Positions 32,872 to 39,652 of a DNA stretch of 64,000 nt are shown piece by piece; within the stretch, counting starts at the first letter, position 1; every line of letters starts with the position of its first letter. Position numbers and translations under genes: made by a program. Origin of the DNA: Micromonospora sp. AMSO31t (GTDB lineage: Bacteria; Actinomycetota; Actinomycetes; Mycobacteriales; Micromonosporaceae); NCBI RefSeq assembly GCF_008868175.1, contig NZ_WBKT01000012.1, positions 1-64,000 of the forward strand. Reading direction: 5' to 3'. Under the pieces are notes generated by a model. The model was not told the origin of the DNA. It saw only the letters and a program-made list of their open reading frames with translations, and did not search any database.

Positions 32872-33449
32872 GGGGTTTCCCTTCCTCCGGACGCGCCGCC
32901 GGGCAGCACGTCGAGCCGGTCGAGCAGCACCAGGAACGCCTCGGCGTACGGCGAGTGCTGCGTCTCCTTCCGTACCCGTTCCCAGTCGATCTGTTCCCGC
33001 AGCGAGCGGGCGAGCGGCAGGGCCCGGGCGAAGTCGCAGTAGTGCTGGGAGAAGCTCAGCAGCTTGTGCACCATGAGCTGGCTGGCCGAGAGCACCGGCA
33101 TGTGGATGGCGTCGACCGGCCGCACGATGGTGTCGGCGAAGGTCTCCTCGGTCACCGGAGTCTCGATCGGCCGGTGGATGAGGTCCACCATCCGGCCCTC
33201 GTCGTAGACCTTGACCAGCCAGTCCTCGGGCGGGCGCTCGGCGGTGAAGCCGGCCTCGACCAGGGCCTCCAGGGCCCGGTCCACGTCCTGCTGCCGGATC
33301 AGGAAGTCCACGTCGTGGTCGCTGGAGTGGCCGCCGTGCGCGTACACGGCGAAGCTCCCCCCGAGCGCAAAGGGGATCTCGGACTGCTTGAGCACGGCGG
33401 CGACCTTCTTCAGCGTGTGCACCAGGGTCTCGTCCCCGCGCTCGGCCAT
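32868..33449 (-). CDS. Nucleotidyltransferase-fold protein
   Basis: 193 residues from ATG 33449. The pol-beta-type nucleotidyltransferase signature is clear: FALGGSFAVYAHGG, then HDVDFLI with the paired aspartates, and a third acidic residue further on (MVDLIHRP). This resembles the stand-alone family that includes AbiEii-type and minimal nucleotidyltransferases. No antitoxin-like HEPN partner lies next to it, so a toxin-antitoxin role is not supported. It is the first gene of the probable operon with the BON and phosphoesterase genes. Substrate unknown. Confidence 0.82.
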   Translation of the reverse strand: MAERGDETLVHTLKKVAAVLKQSEIPFALGGSFAVYAHGGHSSDHDVDFLIRQQDVDRALEALVEAGFTAERPPEDWLVKVYDEGRMVDLIHRPIETPVTEETFADTIVRPVDAIHMPVLSASQLMVHKLLSFSQHYCDFARALPLARSLREQIDWERVRKETQHSPYAEAFLVLLDRLDVLPGGASGGRETP

Positions 33450-33588
33450 TCTGGGTCTCCCGTCGTCGTGGGTGGCGGTGGGAATGAAGTTGCGTACCCG
33501 GCGAACGGGTCGGCCACACCTGTTGAGGACGCGCCCCGACGTGGCGGTGACAATGCGGACAAACCGCCGAAGGTGAGCACGGGTCGGA

Positions 33589-33594
33589 TAGCCT
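33589..33594 (+). promoter_or_regulatory. -10 box for leaderless kinase gene
   Basis: TAGCCT lies 7 nt before the GTG start at 33602, with no Shine-Dalgarno between, which predicts a leaderless mRNA. Confidence 0.55.
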
Positions 33595-33601
33595 CGACAG
33601 G

Positions 33602-34333
33602 GTGGCCAGGTCACTGTGGGTGCGGCGCGGCGGGGCCCGACTGCGCGCCGTCGCCCTGATCGGCATCGACGGCTCGGGCAAGACCACCCAGGCCCACCGG
33701 CTCGCCGAGGCGCTCACGGCGGCGGGCCATCCCGCCACCTATCACCGCAACGCCGGCGGCCGCCGCTGGCTGGGCCGGCTCGCCCAGCGGGTCGGCCGGC
33801 CCGACGCGCAGCGGCTCGTCGGGCGCAACGGGCTGCTCGCCCTGGAGTCCGTGCTCCGCTGGCTGGCCATCGCGCTCGCCCTGCTGACCTGCCTGGTGAC
33901 CGGCCGCACGGCGGTGATGGACCGCTGGTCCGCCTGCCAGTACGCCAGCATCCGGGCGCACGGCGGGCAACGCTGGGAGCGGCTGGCCCGGGCCGGCTAC
34001 CGGGTCTTCCCGCCGCCCCGGGTCACCTTCCTGCTCACCCTGGACCCGGCCGAGGCGTACCGGCGGATCGAGCGGCGCGGCACCGACCACGAGAGCATGC
34101 GGTGGCTCAGCGCCGCGGCCACGGCGTACCGGACCCTGCCGGAGTACGGCAGCTTCGTGGTGGTGGACGGCAGCGGCACCCCGGAGGAGGTGTCCCGCCG
34201 GATCCGCGCGCACCTGACCGAGTGGCTCCCGGGCGACCCGCCGCCCCCGGCCGGCCCGGGCCAGGACGGCACCGACCCGCCCTCGGGCGGGGCGGGGCGC
34301 GGCGCACCGGTGCCGGCTCAGGCCCGCCCGTAG
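33602..34333 (+). CDS. Thymidylate kinase-like P-loop kinase
   Basis: 243 residues from GTG 33602. It has a P-loop in LIGIDGSGKTTQAHRLAEAL, a DR-type motif (VMDRWSACQY) and a LID-like segment rich in Arg (RIERRGTDHESM), as in dTMP kinases. A hydrophobic stretch at about residues 80-103 (LESVLRWLAIALALLTCLVTG) is unusual for canonical Tmk. This points to a divergent paralogue of the thymidylate kinase superfamily rather than the housekeeping enzyme. Possible substrates include other nucleotides or sugars. The last ~30 residues are Pro/Gly-rich and overlap the convergent SDR gene by 16 bp. Confidence 0.8.
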   Translation: MARSLWVRRGGARLRAVALIGIDGSGKTTQAHRLAEALTAAGHPATYHRNAGGRRWLGRLAQRVGRPDAQRLVGRNGLLALESVLRWLAIALALLTCLVTGRTAVMDRWSACQYASIRAHGGQRWERLARAGYRVFPPPRVTFLLTLDPAEAYRRIERRGTDHESMRWLSAAATAYRTLPEYGSFVVVDGSGTPEEVSRRIRAHLTEWLPGDPPPPAGPGQDGTDPPSGGAGRGAPVPAQARP

Positions 34334-35004
34334 ACCGGGATGCTCGCCCCGCTGGTCGGCGTCGACTCCTCGGAGGCCAGGAAGCGGATCACCGCGGCGA
34401 TCTCGGCCGGCGGGACCCAGCGGCCGTGGTCGGCGTCCGGCTGGGCGGCCCGGTTGGCCGGGGTGTCGATCACGCTGGGCAGCACGGTGTTGCAGCGCAC
34501 CCCGCGCTGCCGGTACTCCACCGCCACGGCGTTGGCGAACGCCTGCACGGCCGCCTTGGCGGTGGCGTAGCCGGCCGCGCCGGGGAAGGGTGCCACCGCG
34601 GCCCGGGCCGACACGCAGACCACGGCGCCGCCGCCGGCCGCCACCAGGTGTGGCAGCGCGGCCTGGGTGACCAGGTACGTGGGTCGCAGGTTGACCCGGA
34701 GCATCCGGTCGAACTCCTCGATCGGCGTCTCGTGCACGAGTCCGCCGCTGGCGTACCCGCCGACCAGGTTGACCACCGCCCGCAGCGGCGCGGTCGGCTC
34801 GGCGGCGGCGACGGCCACCGCCCGCGCGACCCCGTCGGGGTCCAGCAGGTCGGCCGTGACGTGGACGGGCCCGGCCGCCGGCGTGTTCCCGCTGCCCTCC
34901 CGTCCGGGGACGACCACCCGCCAGCCGGCCGCGAGGAAGGCGGCGGTGACCGCGCCGCCCAGCCCGCCCGTGCCGCCGGTCACCAGCACCGTGCGCTCCG
35001 CCAT
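34318..35004 (-). CDS. Short-chain dehydrogenase/reductase
   Basis: 228 residues. The Rossmann nucleotide motif is TGGTGGLGGAV (residues ~9-19), with VNLVGGYA in place of NNAG, an active-site Ser in VVCVSARAA, and YATAK as the catalytic YxxxK. The length matches classical SDRs, which oxidise or reduce hydroxyl or keto groups with NAD(P). A TAGCGT box lies 6 nt before the ATG, with no Shine-Dalgarno. It is divergent from the murR-type gene. Substrate unknown. Confidence 0.9.
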   Translation of the reverse strand: MAERTVLVTGGTGGLGGAVTAAFLAAGWRVVVPGREGSGNTPAAGPVHVTADLLDPDGVARAVAVAAAEPTAPLRAVVNLVGGYASGGLVHETPIEEFDRMLRVNLRPTYLVTQAALPHLVAAGGGAVVCVSARAAVAPFPGAAGYATAKAAVQAFANAVAVEYRQRGVRCNTVLPSVIDTPANRAAQPDADHGRWVPPAEIAAVIRFLASEESTPTSGASIPVYGRA

Positions 35005-35010
35005 GCGCCC

Positions 35011-35016
35011 ACGCTA
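35011..35016 (-). promoter_or_regulatory. -10 box for leaderless SDR gene
   Basis: On the minus strand TAGCGT ends 6 nt before the ATG at 35004, and no ribosome site is present. Confidence 0.55.
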
Positions 35017-35270
35017 GCCGCCCGGCCGGCGGGGCGGTGACCGGGGCGGGCATCCGGCCCGGTCGATGCCGGCTGACCTGCGCGCCCGTCCGACCGGTGA
35101 CCTCCGCGAGGCCGTCCGGCCGACCCGGCGAGCGCGACGGCCGAGCCGACGGTCGGCCGGATCGGCGGAGTCGACCGGAGCGGGGGAGGCGGCCGGGCTG
35201 CGGGAATGGGACCCTTGGCACGGGAAGCGGGCGCGGAACGGGGTACTTTTCCGGATACGCGCCGTCATGG

Positions 35271-35299
35271 TTGACGGTCACGCCTCATGAAAGTAAGTT
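35271..35299 (+). promoter_or_regulatory. Promoter of murR-murQ operon
   Basis: A -35 TTGACG (35271-35276) and a -10 TAAGTT (35294-35299) are separated by exactly 17 bp. The predicted start of transcription, 6-7 nt past the -10, falls on the GTG at 35306. The remaining ~265 bp back to the SDR gene hold no recognisable gene. Confidence 0.75.
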
Positions 35300-35303
35300 T
35301 CAT
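35287..35303. promoter_or_regulatory. RpiR/MurR-type operator overlapping the -10 box
   Basis: ATGAAA-N5-TTTCAT is a perfect 6-bp dyad that covers the -10 box and ends 3 bp before the start codon. RpiR-family regulators typically bind GAAA-N5-TTTC-like dyads, so autorepression by steric block is likely. Confidence 0.75.
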
Positions 35304-35305
35304 CC

Positions 35306-36220
35306 GTGGCGAAGAGTCCGAAGATTTCTGCGAGTCACGAGCCCGGTGGACTGATCGTCCACATCAGCGGCCTGCTGCCCTCGCTGTCCCCGGCCGAGCA
35401 GCGGGTGGCCCGGCTGGTCGTCTCCGATCCGGCCGACGCCGCCCGGCGCACCATCACGGACCTCGCCACCGCCGCCGAGACATCGGAGGCCACCGTCATC
35501 CGGTTCTGCCGGTCGGTCGGCATGGACGGCTACCCCCAGCTGCGCATCCGGCTCGCCGCCGAGGCCGCCCGCCGGATCGAGCCACCGGACGCCCGCGTGG
35601 TCGGCGGCGACATCCCGCCCGGCGCCGACCTGGCCCAGATCATCGCCACCATCGCGTTCAACGACGCGCGGGCCGTCGAGGAAACCGCCGAGCAGCTCGA
35701 CCCCGCCGTCTGCGAGCAGGTGGTCGAGGCGATCGTCGCGGCCGGCCGGATCGACGTCTACGGCGCCGGCGCCAGCGGCTTCGTCGCCTCGGACTTCCAG
35801 CAGAAGCTGCACCGCATCGGCCGCACCGCCTTCTACTTCCCGGACGTGCACACCGCGCTCACCTCGGCCGCCCTGCTCGGCCGGGGCGACGTCGCGGTCG
35901 GCATCTCGCACACCGGCACCACCTCGGACGTCATCGAGGTGCTCGAACAGGCCCGCGCCCGGGGCGCCACCACGGTCGCGCTGACCAACTTCCCCCGCTC
36001 GCCGATCACCGAGGTCGCCGACCACGTGCTGACCACCGCGGCCCGCGAGACCACCTACCGCTCCGGCGCGATGGCCAGCCGGCTGGCGCAGCTGACCGTC
36101 GTCGACTGCCTCTTCGTCGGGGTGGCCGCGCGGAACCGCGCCAAGGCCAGGAAGGCCCTCGAGGCAACCGCCGAAGCCGTCCAGTCCCACCGGGTGGGCG
36201 CCGGCCGGAGGCGGGCATGA
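35306..36220 (+). CDS. RpiR/MurR family transcriptional regulator
   Basis: 304 residues from GTG 35306, apparently leaderless. An N-terminal RpiR-type helix-turn-helix (residues ~20-95: PSLSPAEQRVARLVVSDPADAARRTITDLATAAETSEATVIRFCRSVG) is followed by a SIS domain (~130-265) with GAGASGFVASDFQQKL and ISHTGTTSDVIEVL, which binds phosphosugars. It overlaps murQ by 4 bp (ATGA). This context identifies the ligand as probably MurNAc-6-phosphate, as for MurR in other bacteria. No PTS transporter gene follows. Confidence 0.93.
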   Translation: MAKSPKISASHEPGGLIVHISGLLPSLSPAEQRVARLVVSDPADAARRTITDLATAAETSEATVIRFCRSVGMDGYPQLRIRLAAEAARRIEPPDARVVGGDIPPGADLAQIIATIAFNDARAVEETAEQLDPAVCEQVVEAIVAAGRIDVYGAGASGFVASDFQQKLHRIGRTAFYFPDVHTALTSAALLGRGDVAVGISHTGTTSDVIEVLEQARARGATTVALTNFPRSPITEVADHVLTTAARETTYRSGAMASRLAQLTVVDCLFVGVAARNRAKARKALEATAEAVQSHRVGAGRRRA

Positions 36221-37164
36221 CGGCGGGCCGGGTGGAGCGGGACGAGGTGGCCGCCGTGCGGCCCGTGGTCCGGGTGGGCGCCCCCACCGAGCGGCGCAAC
36301 CCGCACAGCCTCGACCTCGACCTCATGTCGACCCGGGACGTGCTCACCGTCATCAACGAGGCGGACCGGCGGGTGCCCGCCGCGGTGGCCGCCGTCCTCG
36401 ACGAGATCGCCGAGACCGTCGACCTGGCCGTCGCCGCGCTGCGCGGTGGCAACCGGGTGCACTACTTCGGCGCCGGCACCTCCGGTCGCCTCGGCGTGCT
36501 CGACGCCGCCGAGCTGGCACCCACCTTCAACTCGCCGCGGCACTGGTTCTGCGCCCATCTGGCCGGCGGTCCCGACGCCATGTGGCGGGCCGTCGAGGAC
36601 GCCGAGGACGACGAGCGCGGCGGCGCCGCCGAGGCCGCCGAGTGCGTACGCCCCGGCGACCTGGTGGTCGGACTGGCCGCCAGCGGACGCACCCCGTACG
36701 TCCTCGGGGCGCTCGCCGCATCCCGGGCGCAGGGGGCCGCGACGGTGCTGCTCTGCGCCAATCCGGAGGCCGACGCCGCCGGGTCGGTCGACGTCTTCAT
36801 CGGGGTGGACACCGGACCGGAGGTGGTCACCGGGTCGACCCGGATGAAGGCGGGCACCGCGCAGAAGCTGGTGCTGAACACCTTCTCCACGGCGGTGATG
36901 GTGCGCCTCGGCCGGGTCTACTCCAACCTGATGATCGACATGGTGGCCACCAATGCGAAGCTGCGTGGCCGGATGATCTCGATCCTCATGGAGGCCACCG
37001 GCTGCGCCGAGGAGGTCTGCCGCGTCGCCCTCAACGAGGCGGACGGCGACCTCAAGACCGCCCTCGTCTCGCTGGTCTCCGGCGCCGAGGTCTCCGCGGC
37101 CCGGGCCGCCCTGGCCCGCTCCGCCGACCAGGTGCGTGGCGCGCTCGCCCTGCTCGCCTCCTGA
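36217..37164 (+). CDS. murQ: N-acetylmuramic acid 6-phosphate etherase
   Basis: 315 residues from ATG 36217, overlapping the regulator stop by 4 bp. The SIS fold is clear: VHYFGAGTSGRLGVLDAAELAPTFN, VGLAASGRTPYVLGAL and VVTGSTRMKAGTAQKLVLNTFST. MurQ cleaves the lactyl ether of MurNAc-6-phosphate to give GlcNAc-6-phosphate and D-lactate during cell-wall recycling or muropeptide use. The N-terminal ~25 residues extend beyond the usual start at TERRNPHS. With its SIS regulator it forms a two-gene operon that ends in a hairpin. Confidence 0.95.
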   Translation: MTAGRVERDEVAAVRPVVRVGAPTERRNPHSLDLDLMSTRDVLTVINEADRRVPAAVAAVLDEIAETVDLAVAALRGGNRVHYFGAGTSGRLGVLDAAELAPTFNSPRHWFCAHLAGGPDAMWRAVEDAEDDERGGAAEAAECVRPGDLVVGLAASGRTPYVLGALAASRAQGAATVLLCANPEADAAGSVDVFIGVDTGPEVVTGSTRMKAGTAQKLVLNTFSTAVMVRLGRVYSNLMIDMVATNAKLRGRMISILMEATGCAEEVCRVALNEADGDLKTALVSLVSGAEVSAARAALARSADQVRGALALLAS

Positions 37165-37173
37165 CGCCTCCGC

Positions 37174-37195
37174 CGGCCGGGTCCCCTCCCGGCCG
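37174..37195 (+). terminator. Terminator after murQ
   Basis: A perfect 8-bp stem (37174-37181 with 37188-37195) with a 6-nt loop begins 10 bp after the murQ stop. Confidence 0.6.
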
Positions 37196-37612
37196 CCCCC
37201 GCACCACGGGTGCGACGCGCGTCACGTGGCGGGAGGGGACGCATCTCCCGCTGCGGATTGTTCAACCAGCCGTGGGGTAATCCTCACCGGTGGCTGAACC
37301 GACCGGCCCGCGAGCGCGTATCTCGCAGTGACCAGGATCGCAATCACGCGGTGACGCGGGTCGCTGTGTTCATGGAATTCGCAATGGTGCGATTTCCTGA
37401 GCGGACGACGATTCCGCTGCTCCGACGCCCTCCGACCGGGGCGTACGCGAGGCACCCGAGCAGGGGTCCTGACAGCAAACATGGACCGGGCTCTCAGCTA
37501 CTACTCAGGCATTCGTGACAGTTTCGACTCACGACATGGAATCCCCGACGCGTCTCATCTGTTGTGTAGGTGTCAGCACCTACGGGCACAGCGGAGGTTA
37601 CGGGGAGGGCTG
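37196..37612 (+). promoter_or_regulatory. Structured upstream region of the sigma factor gene
   Basis: About 420 bp without a recognisable gene. It contains a hairpin with 7-bp arms at 37229-37235/37245-37251, and a 10-bp dyad with one mismatch at 37374-37383/37388-37397 around an AT-rich GGAATTCGCA. Next to the gene lies a perfect 7-bp stem with loop TCAG at 37566-37583, 30 bp before the ATG and just upstream of the ribosome site. These look like operator and mRNA-leader elements for the sigma gene. The open frame that starts at 37481 has no ribosome site and reads through the hairpin. Confidence 0.5.
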
Positions 37613-38614
37613 ATGAACGTGGGGATGGCAAGGAACCGGGCAACCGGCGCGAGCGAGGGGACCGTGGCAATCGTGGACAAGAACATCGGCATGCGTACCG
37701 ACGAGGTCGCCGAGGAGCGGGACCTGGTCGGCGTCTACCTGCACGAGATCTCCCGGACGCCGCTGCTGGACGCCGCCAAGGAGGTCGATCTCTCCAAGGC
37801 GATCGAGGCGGGCCTCTACGCCGAGCACCTGCTCGGCGAGGACCGCGTCCCCGCCGGCGTCGACCGGGACGACCTGGAGCGGCTGGTCGCCGAGGGTGAG
37901 CGCGCGAAGGACCTGTTCATCCGCGCCAACCTGCGGCTGGTCGTCTCGATCGCCCGCCGCTACGTGCGGTCGGGCATGCCCATGCTGGACCTCATCCAGG
38001 AGGGCAACACCGGCCTGGTGCGCGCGGTCGAGAAGTTCGACTACGAGCGGGGCTACAAGTTCTCCACCTACGCGACGTGGTGGATCCGCCAGGCCATCAG
38101 CCGGGCGATCGCCCAGCAGGAGCGCACGGTGCGACTGCCCGTGCACCTGGTCGAGGACGTCAACCGGATGCGCAACGTGGCCCGGCAGCTCACCCGTGAG
38201 CTGGGCAGCGACCCGGAGCCGGAGCAGATCGCCGCGGCGCTCGGCGTCACCGTCGAGCGGGTGAACGAGCTGCGCCGCTGGTCGCAGGACACCGTCTCGC
38301 TGGACACCCCGGTGGGCGACGACGGCGACACCAACCTCGGCGACCTGGTCGCCGACAGCGACGCCCCGTCGCCGGAGGAGATCGTCCTCACCGGCCTGGA
38401 GCGGCAGCGGATCGAGGGTCTGCTCAACCACCTCGACGACCGTTCGGCCGGCATCATGCGGGCCCGCTACGGCCTGGAGGACGGGCGCGAGCACTCGCTG
38501 ACCGAGGTCGCCTCGCGGTTCTCGCTCTCCCGGGAGCGGATCCGCCAGCTGGAGATCCAGGCCCTCGGCCGGCTCCGTGAGCTGGCCCGCGCGGAGGGGC
38601 TGCAGGCGGCCTGA
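37613..38614 (+). CDS. Principal-type sigma-70 factor (SigB/HrdB-like)
   Basis: 333 residues from ATG 37613, which follows GGGGAGG. Regions 1.2 to 4.2 are complete: DLVGVYLHEISRTPLLDAAKEVDL (1.2), KDLFIRANLRLVVSIARRYV and MLDLIQEGNTGLVRAVEKFDYERGYKFSTYATWWIRQAI (region 2, promoter melting and -10 contact), EQERTVRLPVHLVEDVN-type region 3, and the 4.2 helix-turn-helix ending SLSRERIRQLEIQALGRLREL. The short N-terminus lacks the long acidic region 1.1 of the essential HrdB, so this is a group 2 factor, like mycobacterial SigB or Streptomyces HrdA/C/D, used in stationary phase or stress. Confidence 0.95.
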   Translation: MNVGMARNRATGASEGTVAIVDKNIGMRTDEVAEERDLVGVYLHEISRTPLLDAAKEVDLSKAIEAGLYAEHLLGEDRVPAGVDRDDLERLVAEGERAKDLFIRANLRLVVSIARRYVRSGMPMLDLIQEGNTGLVRAVEKFDYERGYKFSTYATWWIRQAISRAIAQQERTVRLPVHLVEDVNRMRNVARQLTRELGSDPEPEQIAAALGVTVERVNELRRWSQDTVSLDTPVGDDGDTNLGDLVADSDAPSPEEIVLTGLERQRIEGLLNHLDDRSAGIMRARYGLEDGREHSLTEVASRFSLSRERIRQLEIQALGRLRELARAEGLQAA

Positions 38615-38634
38615 GCTGGTAGTAATGGAATCGA

Positions 38635-38673
38635 CGAACGGCCGGCGTCCGATAGGGGGACGCCGGCCGTTCG
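38635..38673. terminator. Bidirectional terminator after sigma gene
   Basis: A perfect stem of 15 bp (38636-38650 with 38658-38672), extended to 16 by the flanking pair, has a 7-nt loop. It lies between the convergent sigma and NlpC/P60 genes. Confidence 0.78.
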
Positions 38674-38683
38674 CCGTTCCGCG

Positions 38684-39652
38684 TCAGCGCACCCGGCCGT
38701 AGCCGGCGATGGACATGATGTCCATGTCGCGCTTGTTGACGTTGCGCCCCGCGCTGGGCGCATCGATGATCTGACCACCGCCCACGTACAGGGCCACGTG
38801 CCCGAGCCCGGAGTAGAACACCAGGTCGCCGGGTTGCAGCGAGCCGCGGCTGATCCGCGAGGTGGCGTTCCACTGCATCGCCGCGTTGTGCGGCAGGGAC
38901 TTGCCGGCCGCCCGCCAGGACGCCAGGGTCAGCCCCGAGCAGTCGTAGCTGCCGGGGCCCTCGTCGCCGTAGCCGTACGGCTTGCCGATCGCGCCGTAGG
39001 CGTAGCGCACGGCCACGCCGGCGGAACCGGAGATGGCCGGGGCGTTGCCGGCGGAGCTGGATCGCGTGGGCGCCTCGGTGGCCCGGCCGTACGCCTTGCG
39101 GCGCAGCTCGTAGAGGCGGGCCAGGTCCCCCTCGATCTTCTTCCTGCCGGCGACCAACTGCTTGGCCTGCGCCGCCTCCCGGGCCAGCGTGGCGTCGAGC
39201 CGGGTCTTCTGGTCGATCAGCTGACGCTGGCTCTCGGTGAAGCCGGTGATGGTCTGCTGCCGCTGGCGGGTCAACTGGTCCAGGGTGCCCAGCCGGTCCG
39301 GCAGCGTGGCGGCGCCGCCCGGGTCCAGCAGGGCCTGCATGGTGCGCATGCCTCCGGTCTTGTAGGCCGTGGCGGCGATGGCGCCGACATCGGCGCGACT
39401 CCGCTCGGCCTGCTCCTGCAACGGGCCGATCCTGGCCTGCAACCTGGCCGCGGTGGCCTTGTTGGCCTTGATCTCCTCGTTGAGCTTGTTGTACGACTCG
39501 ACGATTCGCTCCAGCTCAGTCGAGGACTTCTCGATCTGCTTCGTCAGCTCGGCGGGGGTGGGCTCGGCGCGAGCCACCGTCGCCGGGGCGAGCAGCGTGG
39601 CCGAGAGGCCCGCCACCGCCAACGAGCGCAGCAGGATCCGTAAGGACGACAA
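38684..39652 (-). CDS. Secreted NlpC/P60 endopeptidase with coiled-coil N-terminus
   Basis: 322 residues from a TTG start at 39652 with GAGGAG ~11 nt upstream. A signal peptide ends near AARAEP (~residue 30). Residues ~35-190 form a long helical coiled coil, as in RipA/PcsB-type hydrolases. The C-terminal NlpC/P60 domain (~205-320) carries the Cys in YDCSGLTLASW and His in GLGHVALYVGGG. These enzymes cut D-Glu-meso-DAP bonds in peptidoglycan, typically during cell separation, and the coiled coil often auto-inhibits or binds FtsEX-like partners. A 490-bp region upstream without a gene suggests substantial regulation. Confidence 0.92.
   Translation of the reverse strand: MSSLRILLRSLAVAGLSATLLAPATVARAEPTPAELTKQIEKSSTELERIVESYNKLNEEIKANKATAARLQARIGPLQEQAERSRADVGAIAATAYKTGGMRTMQALLDPGGAATLPDRLGTLDQLTRQRQQTITGFTESQRQLIDQKTRLDATLAREAAQAKQLVAGRKKIEGDLARLYELRRKAYGRATEAPTRSSSAGNAPAISGSAGVAVRYAYGAIGKPYGYGDEGPGSYDCSGLTLASWRAAGKSLPHNAAMQWNATSRISRGSLQPGDLVFYSGLGHVALYVGGGQIIDAPSAGRNVNKRDMDIMSIAGYGRVR

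Follow-up and report, generated by a model that had tools for sequence, protein, structure and literature searches.

The E. coli MurR and murQ divergon was reportedly described by Jaeger and Mayer in 2008. E. coli MurR is, like the regulator analyzed here, an RpiR/SIS regulator of murQ with sites that overlap the -35 and -10 boxes, and it has been proposed to act as a tetramer over two sites 17 bp apart, covering 47 bp in total (preprint PMC12713135, excerpts). In E. coli, murR and murQ are arranged divergently, murQ sharing an operon with the transporter MurP (PMC5061867, in part). In contrast, the Micromonospora locus has a single, predicted leaderless murR-murQ operon, in which the operator (O1) is merged with the -10 box and a candidate second site (O2) lies in the coding sequence. 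The S. coelicolor pair SCO4308-SCO4307 is similar in that a MurR-like regulator adjoins murQ and no MurP orthologue is present; the available portion of PMC5061867 describes neither an operator nor a transcript start for this pair. A DNA complex has been reported for another RpiR-family member, S. pneumoniae NanR (9dqn; site TCTGAAAGTACTTTTAGA, consensus TCTGAAACTACTTTCAAA). Its TGAAA...TTT(C/T)A arms are nearly those of O1, and a tetramer with a downstream half-site has been proposed. However, NanR is an activator, has a 4-bp instead of a 5-bp centre and binds ManNAc-6P (excerpts of PMC12713135).

In the literature searched, mostly outside subscription papers, we found no description of this operator and no account of the control of cell-wall-sugar recycling in actinomycetes. 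The layout reported here varies the MurR-type control already known rather than founding a new kind. The observation made in an initial annotation of this DNA is real, and the analysis adds a candidate second site, several lineages and co-loss with murQ. This provides a portable candidate operator for the control of cell-wall-sugar recycling in actinomycetes, backed by comparative genomics, together with a very small, putatively autoregulated promoter, and suggests an operator that constrains codon use in the first part of a gene.

A dyad on the -10 box of the predicted murR promoter

The following features were located in the window, i.e., the whole 64-kb stretch of DNA that was analyzed.

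35271-35276, + strand: -35 box TTGACG, from sequence, kept in relatives
35277-35293: spacer between the -35 and -10 boxes, 17 bp
35287-35303: 17-bp perfect dyad ATGAAAGTAAGTTTCAT, enclosing the -10 box
35288-35302, no strand: operator O1, conserved 15-bp core TGAAAGTAAGTTTCA, from column conservation and genus-genome counts
35294-35299, + strand: -10 box TAAGTT, enclosed by the dyad, kept in relatives
35306, + strand: predicted transcription start at the G of GTG (leaderless), from geometry
35306-36220, + strand: murR-like regulator, HTH_6 (rpiR) plus SIS, 304 aa (Pfam; AlphaFold model)
35319-35328, no strand: candidate O2, codons 5-8, CGAAGATTTC, with GAA at 35320, 31 bp from the start of the O1 core
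36217-37164, + strand: murQ (NCBIfam NF003915, 373 bits; cut-off, 168)

The window sequence bears out the arrangement first claimed for this locus, namely TTGACG, 17 bp, TAAGTT, a GTG starting at 35306, and a perfect dyad that covers the -10 box. The GTG start codon is located 6 nt downstream of the -10 box, and an in-frame TAA at 35294 makes it the first possible start. Even with up to two mismatches permitted, the dyad has a single match in the window (expected, 0.01), and its perfect 17-bp form is present in a single copy in the 6.36-Mb genome. A 625-residue open frame (35287-37164) also begins within the dyad, crosses murR out of frame and enters murQ; it was rejected as a gene and is probably an artefact of high GC content in the +1 frame.

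Calling the promoter near-ideal, as the initial annotation did, is too strong when compared to the E. coli consensus: TAAGTT agrees with TATAAT at three of six positions, and a sigma-70 scan of 33000-39000 listed no promoter. The looser actinobacterial -10 pattern is TANNNT, with which TAAGTT is compatible. The evidence for the putative promoter is its conservation, not its fit to a consensus. The predicted promoter, the operator and the start codon merge into a single element of approximately 60 bp, spanning the -35 box to the candidate O2.

Conservation was assessed in the 80 best-ranking of 164 relatives; the named ones place the host in Micromonospora, and one (L005) shows 100% identity and could be nearly a duplicate. 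The window and these 80 named murR loci, leaving out one that starts inside the gene (L084), make up 80 assessable loci, and 79 of them carry TGAAAGTAA(G/C)TTTCA; the exception is a locus of Actinocatenispora (L082). Across these 79 rows, 14 of the 15 columns of the O1 core are invariant and the remaining one is G/C, an invariance that partly follows from selection, as the rows were picked by the core pattern at the cost of one locus. The surrounding elements are kept as well, with a -35 box of TTGACG in 78 rows and TTGACT in one, a spacer of 17 bp (61 rows) or 18 bp (18 rows), a -10 box of TAAGTT in 77 and TAACTT in two, and the GTG in unchanged register in all 79. Core columns hold 2.0 bits of information (one column, 1.83), versus at most 1.23 bits each at positions -75 to -36. 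The outermost A/T pair of the 17-bp dyad (columns -19 and -3) is not conserved. Hence, of the 17-bp unit originally proposed, the 15-bp core stands and the outer pair does not.

Linkage of the site to murQ within and outside the genus

Of 73 genus genomes, 60 contain a single copy of the pattern GAAAGTAASTTTC and 13 contain none, and a reversed-pattern control gave zero matches in all 73. All 60 site-bearing genomes have a murQ match, which in 59 of them is located on the same contig and strand at a distance of 916 to 1071 bp from the site; the 60th (G004) has a partial murQ at the edge of a different contig. In G053, the site is intact but murQ may be frameshifted, as its matches are split over two frames. 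Among the 13 site-less genomes, 12 are without murQ and one has a truncated murQ. Ten of these have neither a close murR (only a 43 to 45% paralogue) nor murQ. The other three (G012, G041 and G060) keep murR at 86 to 95% with an altered right arm (TTCCG, TCCAA and TTCCA); murQ is missing from G012 and G041 and, in G060, is without its first 70 residues. Fisher's test of site against murQ gives 7e-13 if G060 is scored as murQ-positive and 1e-14 otherwise, values that are a description rather than a probability since the genomes are related and the counts not independent. The site is thus lost or decayed where murQ is lost. Among 48 other genomes of the same order, the pattern was found only in G064, a genome of another family, as a single GAAAGTAAGTTTC (L233, G064:C1:413694-413706) on a contig different from that of its murR.

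The TGAAA-N5-TTTCA arms are also those of actinobacterial Zur boxes (excerpts of PMC2823685 and PMC5472717), including boxes of S. coelicolor (TGAAAATGATTTTCA, PMC2823685), and in relatives a number of perfect ATGAAA-N5-TTTCAT copies are centred on sequences resembling AACGGTT or AACCATT. The dyad could accordingly be a box for the zinc uptake regulator Zur, making murR-murQ zinc-responsive. However, Zur boxes differ in their atSat centre (AACGGTT-like in the genome studied here) and in their neighbour genes, and the O1 centre GTAAG deviates at three of five central positions from tGaNNatSatNNtCa (PMC5472717, in part). The centre AGTAAGT at murR differs from theirs and is fixed over the 79 rows except for one G/C. 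Zur-like boxes of the same genome, found beside CobW-family and FUR-family genes (L111, G000:C7:83025-83039; L118, G000:C197:4321-4335), read TGAAAACGGTTGTCA and TGACAACGGCTTTCA, with an AACGGTT-like centre. In addition, the murR site vanishes or decays alongside murQ. The Zur box was dropped on its centre sequence and the murQ linkage despite its matching arms, and we regard it as extremely improbable.

As to a larger regulon, no other perfect site is present in the genome. Allowing one mismatch yields 12 more sites (13 in all), versus 4 in the reversed control. Two of the 12 are Zur-like (CobW and FUR-family) and one precedes a TetR gene. The remaining ones showed no pathway connection by eye, inspected by their surroundings (9) or by sequence (L109, L117 and L120), L120 resembling the end of a 16S rRNA gene. 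None of the 13 sites is located on C17, the contig with AnmK.

Outside the genus, a class-level search covered 296 genomes, at least 100 of which had a match among the matches listed. We examined 87 homologues, comprising 27 search loci and 60 hand-picked stretches, mostly the best per genome; they include the paralogue of the genome studied here, and a few genomes are counted twice. murQ is downstream on the same strand in 43 of the 87; among the remaining 44, three have murQ upstream and two have it on the opposite strand. A geometry of TTGA(C/T), 16 to 19 bp, NANNNT, 5 to 7 nt and an in-frame start, set after viewing the loci, is present in 37/43 murQ-linked regulators versus 3/44 others. 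When a GAAA-N5-TTTC dyad with at least seven of eight matches is demanded on the -10 box as well, the numbers are 34/43 and 1/44, respectively. Shuffled upstream stretches had the geometry in 2/4350 cases and the geometry with the dyad in 0/4350. The murQ-linked regulators without the geometry are L129, L130, L135, L150, L154 and L210; L130 was scored in this way though its site was found separately, and the counts are kept as computed. The dyad on the -10 box and the leaderless geometry of the initial annotation are therefore kept both in close relatives (79/80) and in distant murQ-linked regulators (37/43).

The centre of the -10 box differs by lineage, being TAAGTT or TAACTT in some, AAACTT or GAAACT in family f31, where the -10 register is ambiguous, and TATCTT in genus g47, which we guess to be Streptomyces. 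Lineages with differing centres share the arms and, as a rule, a distance of 6 nt to the start codon. Two loci of family f5 (L215 and L216) have a matching layout with GCAAGTAACTTTC. The RpiR homologues L151 and L154 carry a TTGAC-17-TAA(C/G)TT box followed by an RBS-like leader and seem to be the led counterpart of the leaderless design. Since L154 combines the same boxes with such a leader, the leaderless form is common, not universal. As it recurs in distant actinomycetes, the layout looks real and old.

These data also bear on whether the block is a promoter with a leaderless start only, its symmetry incidental and no regulator bound. Such a reading could draw on the fact that the centre of the dyad is the -10 box itself and that -35 box, -10 box and start are all conserved, but the arms beyond the -10 box (TGA...TCA) are invariant across 79 rows. 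Moreover, the GAAA...TTTC arms are kept despite differing -10 centres (TAAGTT, AAACTT and TATCTT), and it is the right arm that is altered in the three genus members with murR but without intact murQ. We consider an unbound promoter very unlikely and favor an operator on the -10 box. MurR is the likeliest binder of O1, because it is the adjacent regulator, because the arms are NanR-like and because the site is co-lost with murQ.

A candidate second site in the first codons

At +31 from the start of the O1 core, GAA is found in 79/79 rows of close relatives and in 31/37 distant loci, the latter selected by pattern. In three further distant loci it is located at 32, with the start codon also 1 nt further away, and it is absent from that position in L126, L130 and L139. 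In genus g47, a full second dyad, GAAGGAAANTTTC, covers codons 5 to 9 at +31/+32 in 20 loci. Codon counts for this genus are based on these 20 rows, L210 being dropped as no site was found. Codon 7 is GAA in 20/20, whereas elsewhere in these genes GAA occurs 35 times and GAG 170 times. Codon 8 is ATT, ACT, AGT or AAT, with a free middle base and a wobble T in 20/20, against a background of 2.7% wobble T overall and 0/189 among Ile codons. This pattern at codons 7 and 8 points to a constraint on DNA rather than on protein. As 15-mers, O1 and O2 of g47 span 46 bp at an offset of 31 to 32 bp, dimensions close to those of the two-site, 47-bp arrangement proposed for E. coli MurR (excerpts of PMC12713135).

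In the close relatives, codon 7 has a wobble T in 79/79, while later Ile codons are ATT in 10/1158. Arguing against O2 in this group, GAA also occurs at +22 in 77/79 rows, Lys6 shows protein-level conservation, and the register of the right half-site differs from that in g47. A preference for T in early codons is also seen at codons 4, 10 and 14 of close relatives and at codon 3 in at least 8/20 g47 rows, and AT-rich early codons may partly be the cause of O2. A second site in the first codons is probable. The window itself would hold at most a candidate half-site, as Micromonospora does generally when set against the E. coli two-site mode, GAA also being found there at +22.

It is conceivable, with chances slightly short of even, that the two sites, O1 at the -10 box and O2 within codons 5 to 9, form a clamp over 31 to 32 bp that is bridged by one tetramer, with the operator setting the N-terminal codons. 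If so, the tetramer would cover the -10 box, the start point, the start codon and the first codons of a leaderless mRNA. The operator would then dictate codons, and partly residues, of the regulator's disordered N-terminus across actinomycete families.

The regulator, its proposed effector and the proposed mechanism

The gene at 35306 encodes an SIS regulator, as had been claimed: by Pfam it combines HTH_6 (rpiR; PF01418, 58.9 bits; cut-off, 28.3) with SIS (PF01380, 99 bits; cut-off, 25), the domain pair of RpiR/MurR-type regulators. Against the MurR equivalog of the E. coli type (NF012026), it scores 122.2 bits with a cut-off of 408, and it is best described as predicted MurR-like, not as the E. 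coli equivalog. The adjacent gene was correctly named murQ, given its NF003915 score and the site-murQ linkage across the genus, and the murR stop overlaps its ATG (ATGA overlap). The linkage to murQ is what is expected of a MurR in the functional sense, as is the operator-like site overlapping the putative murQ/murR promoter, where O1 holds the -10 box and MurR would bind. Downstream of murQ, 37613-38614 is a sigma-70 family gene whose best NCBIfam match, SigB, is below the cut-off.

In the AlphaFold model, residues 1 to 14 have a pLDDT of <50, and structure comparison of the SIS domain (residues 106 to 296) identified E. coli MurR as the nearest solved fold. The best match is 7en7, with MurNAc-6P (Z, 27.9; 1.2 A over 190 residues; 31% identity), and ranks 1 to 3 are tied between the MurNAc-6P (7en7), apo and GlcNAc-6P (7en5) forms. 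A loop motif resembling that of E. coli MurR was rejected as proof of the effector since it does not discriminate, occurring in 43/43 murQ-linked regulators but also in 21/44 others. GlcNAc-6P is the product of MurQ, which counts toward another amino-sugar phosphate, such as GlcNAc-6P, being the effector instead of MurNAc-6P, as does the E. coli MurR crystal with GlcNAc-6P (7en5, tied with 7en7). This is opposed by the strict murQ linkage and by the repression that E. coli MurR exerts without MurNAc-6P (PMC5061867, in part). An effector other than MurNAc-6P is therefore unlikely in our view.

Taken together, we infer with high confidence that the site serves murR-murQ, a two-gene, single-target recycling operon, as both promoter and auto-operator, with MurR repressing the operon until MurNAc-6-phosphate appears. 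As an RpiR/SIS repressor, MurR would occupy the dyad that holds the -10 box of the predicted leaderless murR promoter, blocking RNA polymerase and so holding down both murR and the overlapping murQ. One possible source of MurNAc-6-phosphate is the phosphorylation of anhydro-MurNAc by AnmK, which is encoded in the same genome on C17. Upon accumulation, it would bind the SIS domain and MurR would leave the DNA, with murR-murQ being expressed until MurQ has cleared the MurNAc-6-phosphate signal. A second, weaker contact at codons 5 to 9, approximately three helical turns downstream, would probably turn the complex into a tetramer clamp on the -10 box, start point and start codon.

MurR could alternatively activate its operon, as RpiR activators are known, namely S. 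pneumoniae NanR (excerpts of PMC12713135) and L. lactis GlaR (PMC6528599, in part). However, a site on the -10 box should exclude polymerase, whereas the NanR site is 55 bp from the -35 box (PMC12713135). The same preprint describes all reported RpiR regulators other than NanR as repressors, a statement that appears too strong in view of GlaR (PMC6528599, in part). Repression is argued more strongly by the -10 position than by this family precedent, and activation by MurR seems highly improbable.

Further homologues of both genes were observed. A second MurQ homologue, 46 to 50% identical, is located elsewhere in 16/73 genus genomes (e.g., G002:C1:1345206-1346096). The genus also has a second RpiR paralogue (43 to 46% identity) with its own upstream repeat, the copy in the genome studied here being L175 (G000:C128:1848-2705). 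Among 13 paralogue loci (L217-L226 and L228-L230), eight read CTAACAGTTAACAGTC shortly upstream of the ATG and the others vary, making this sequence a candidate for a different auto-operator.
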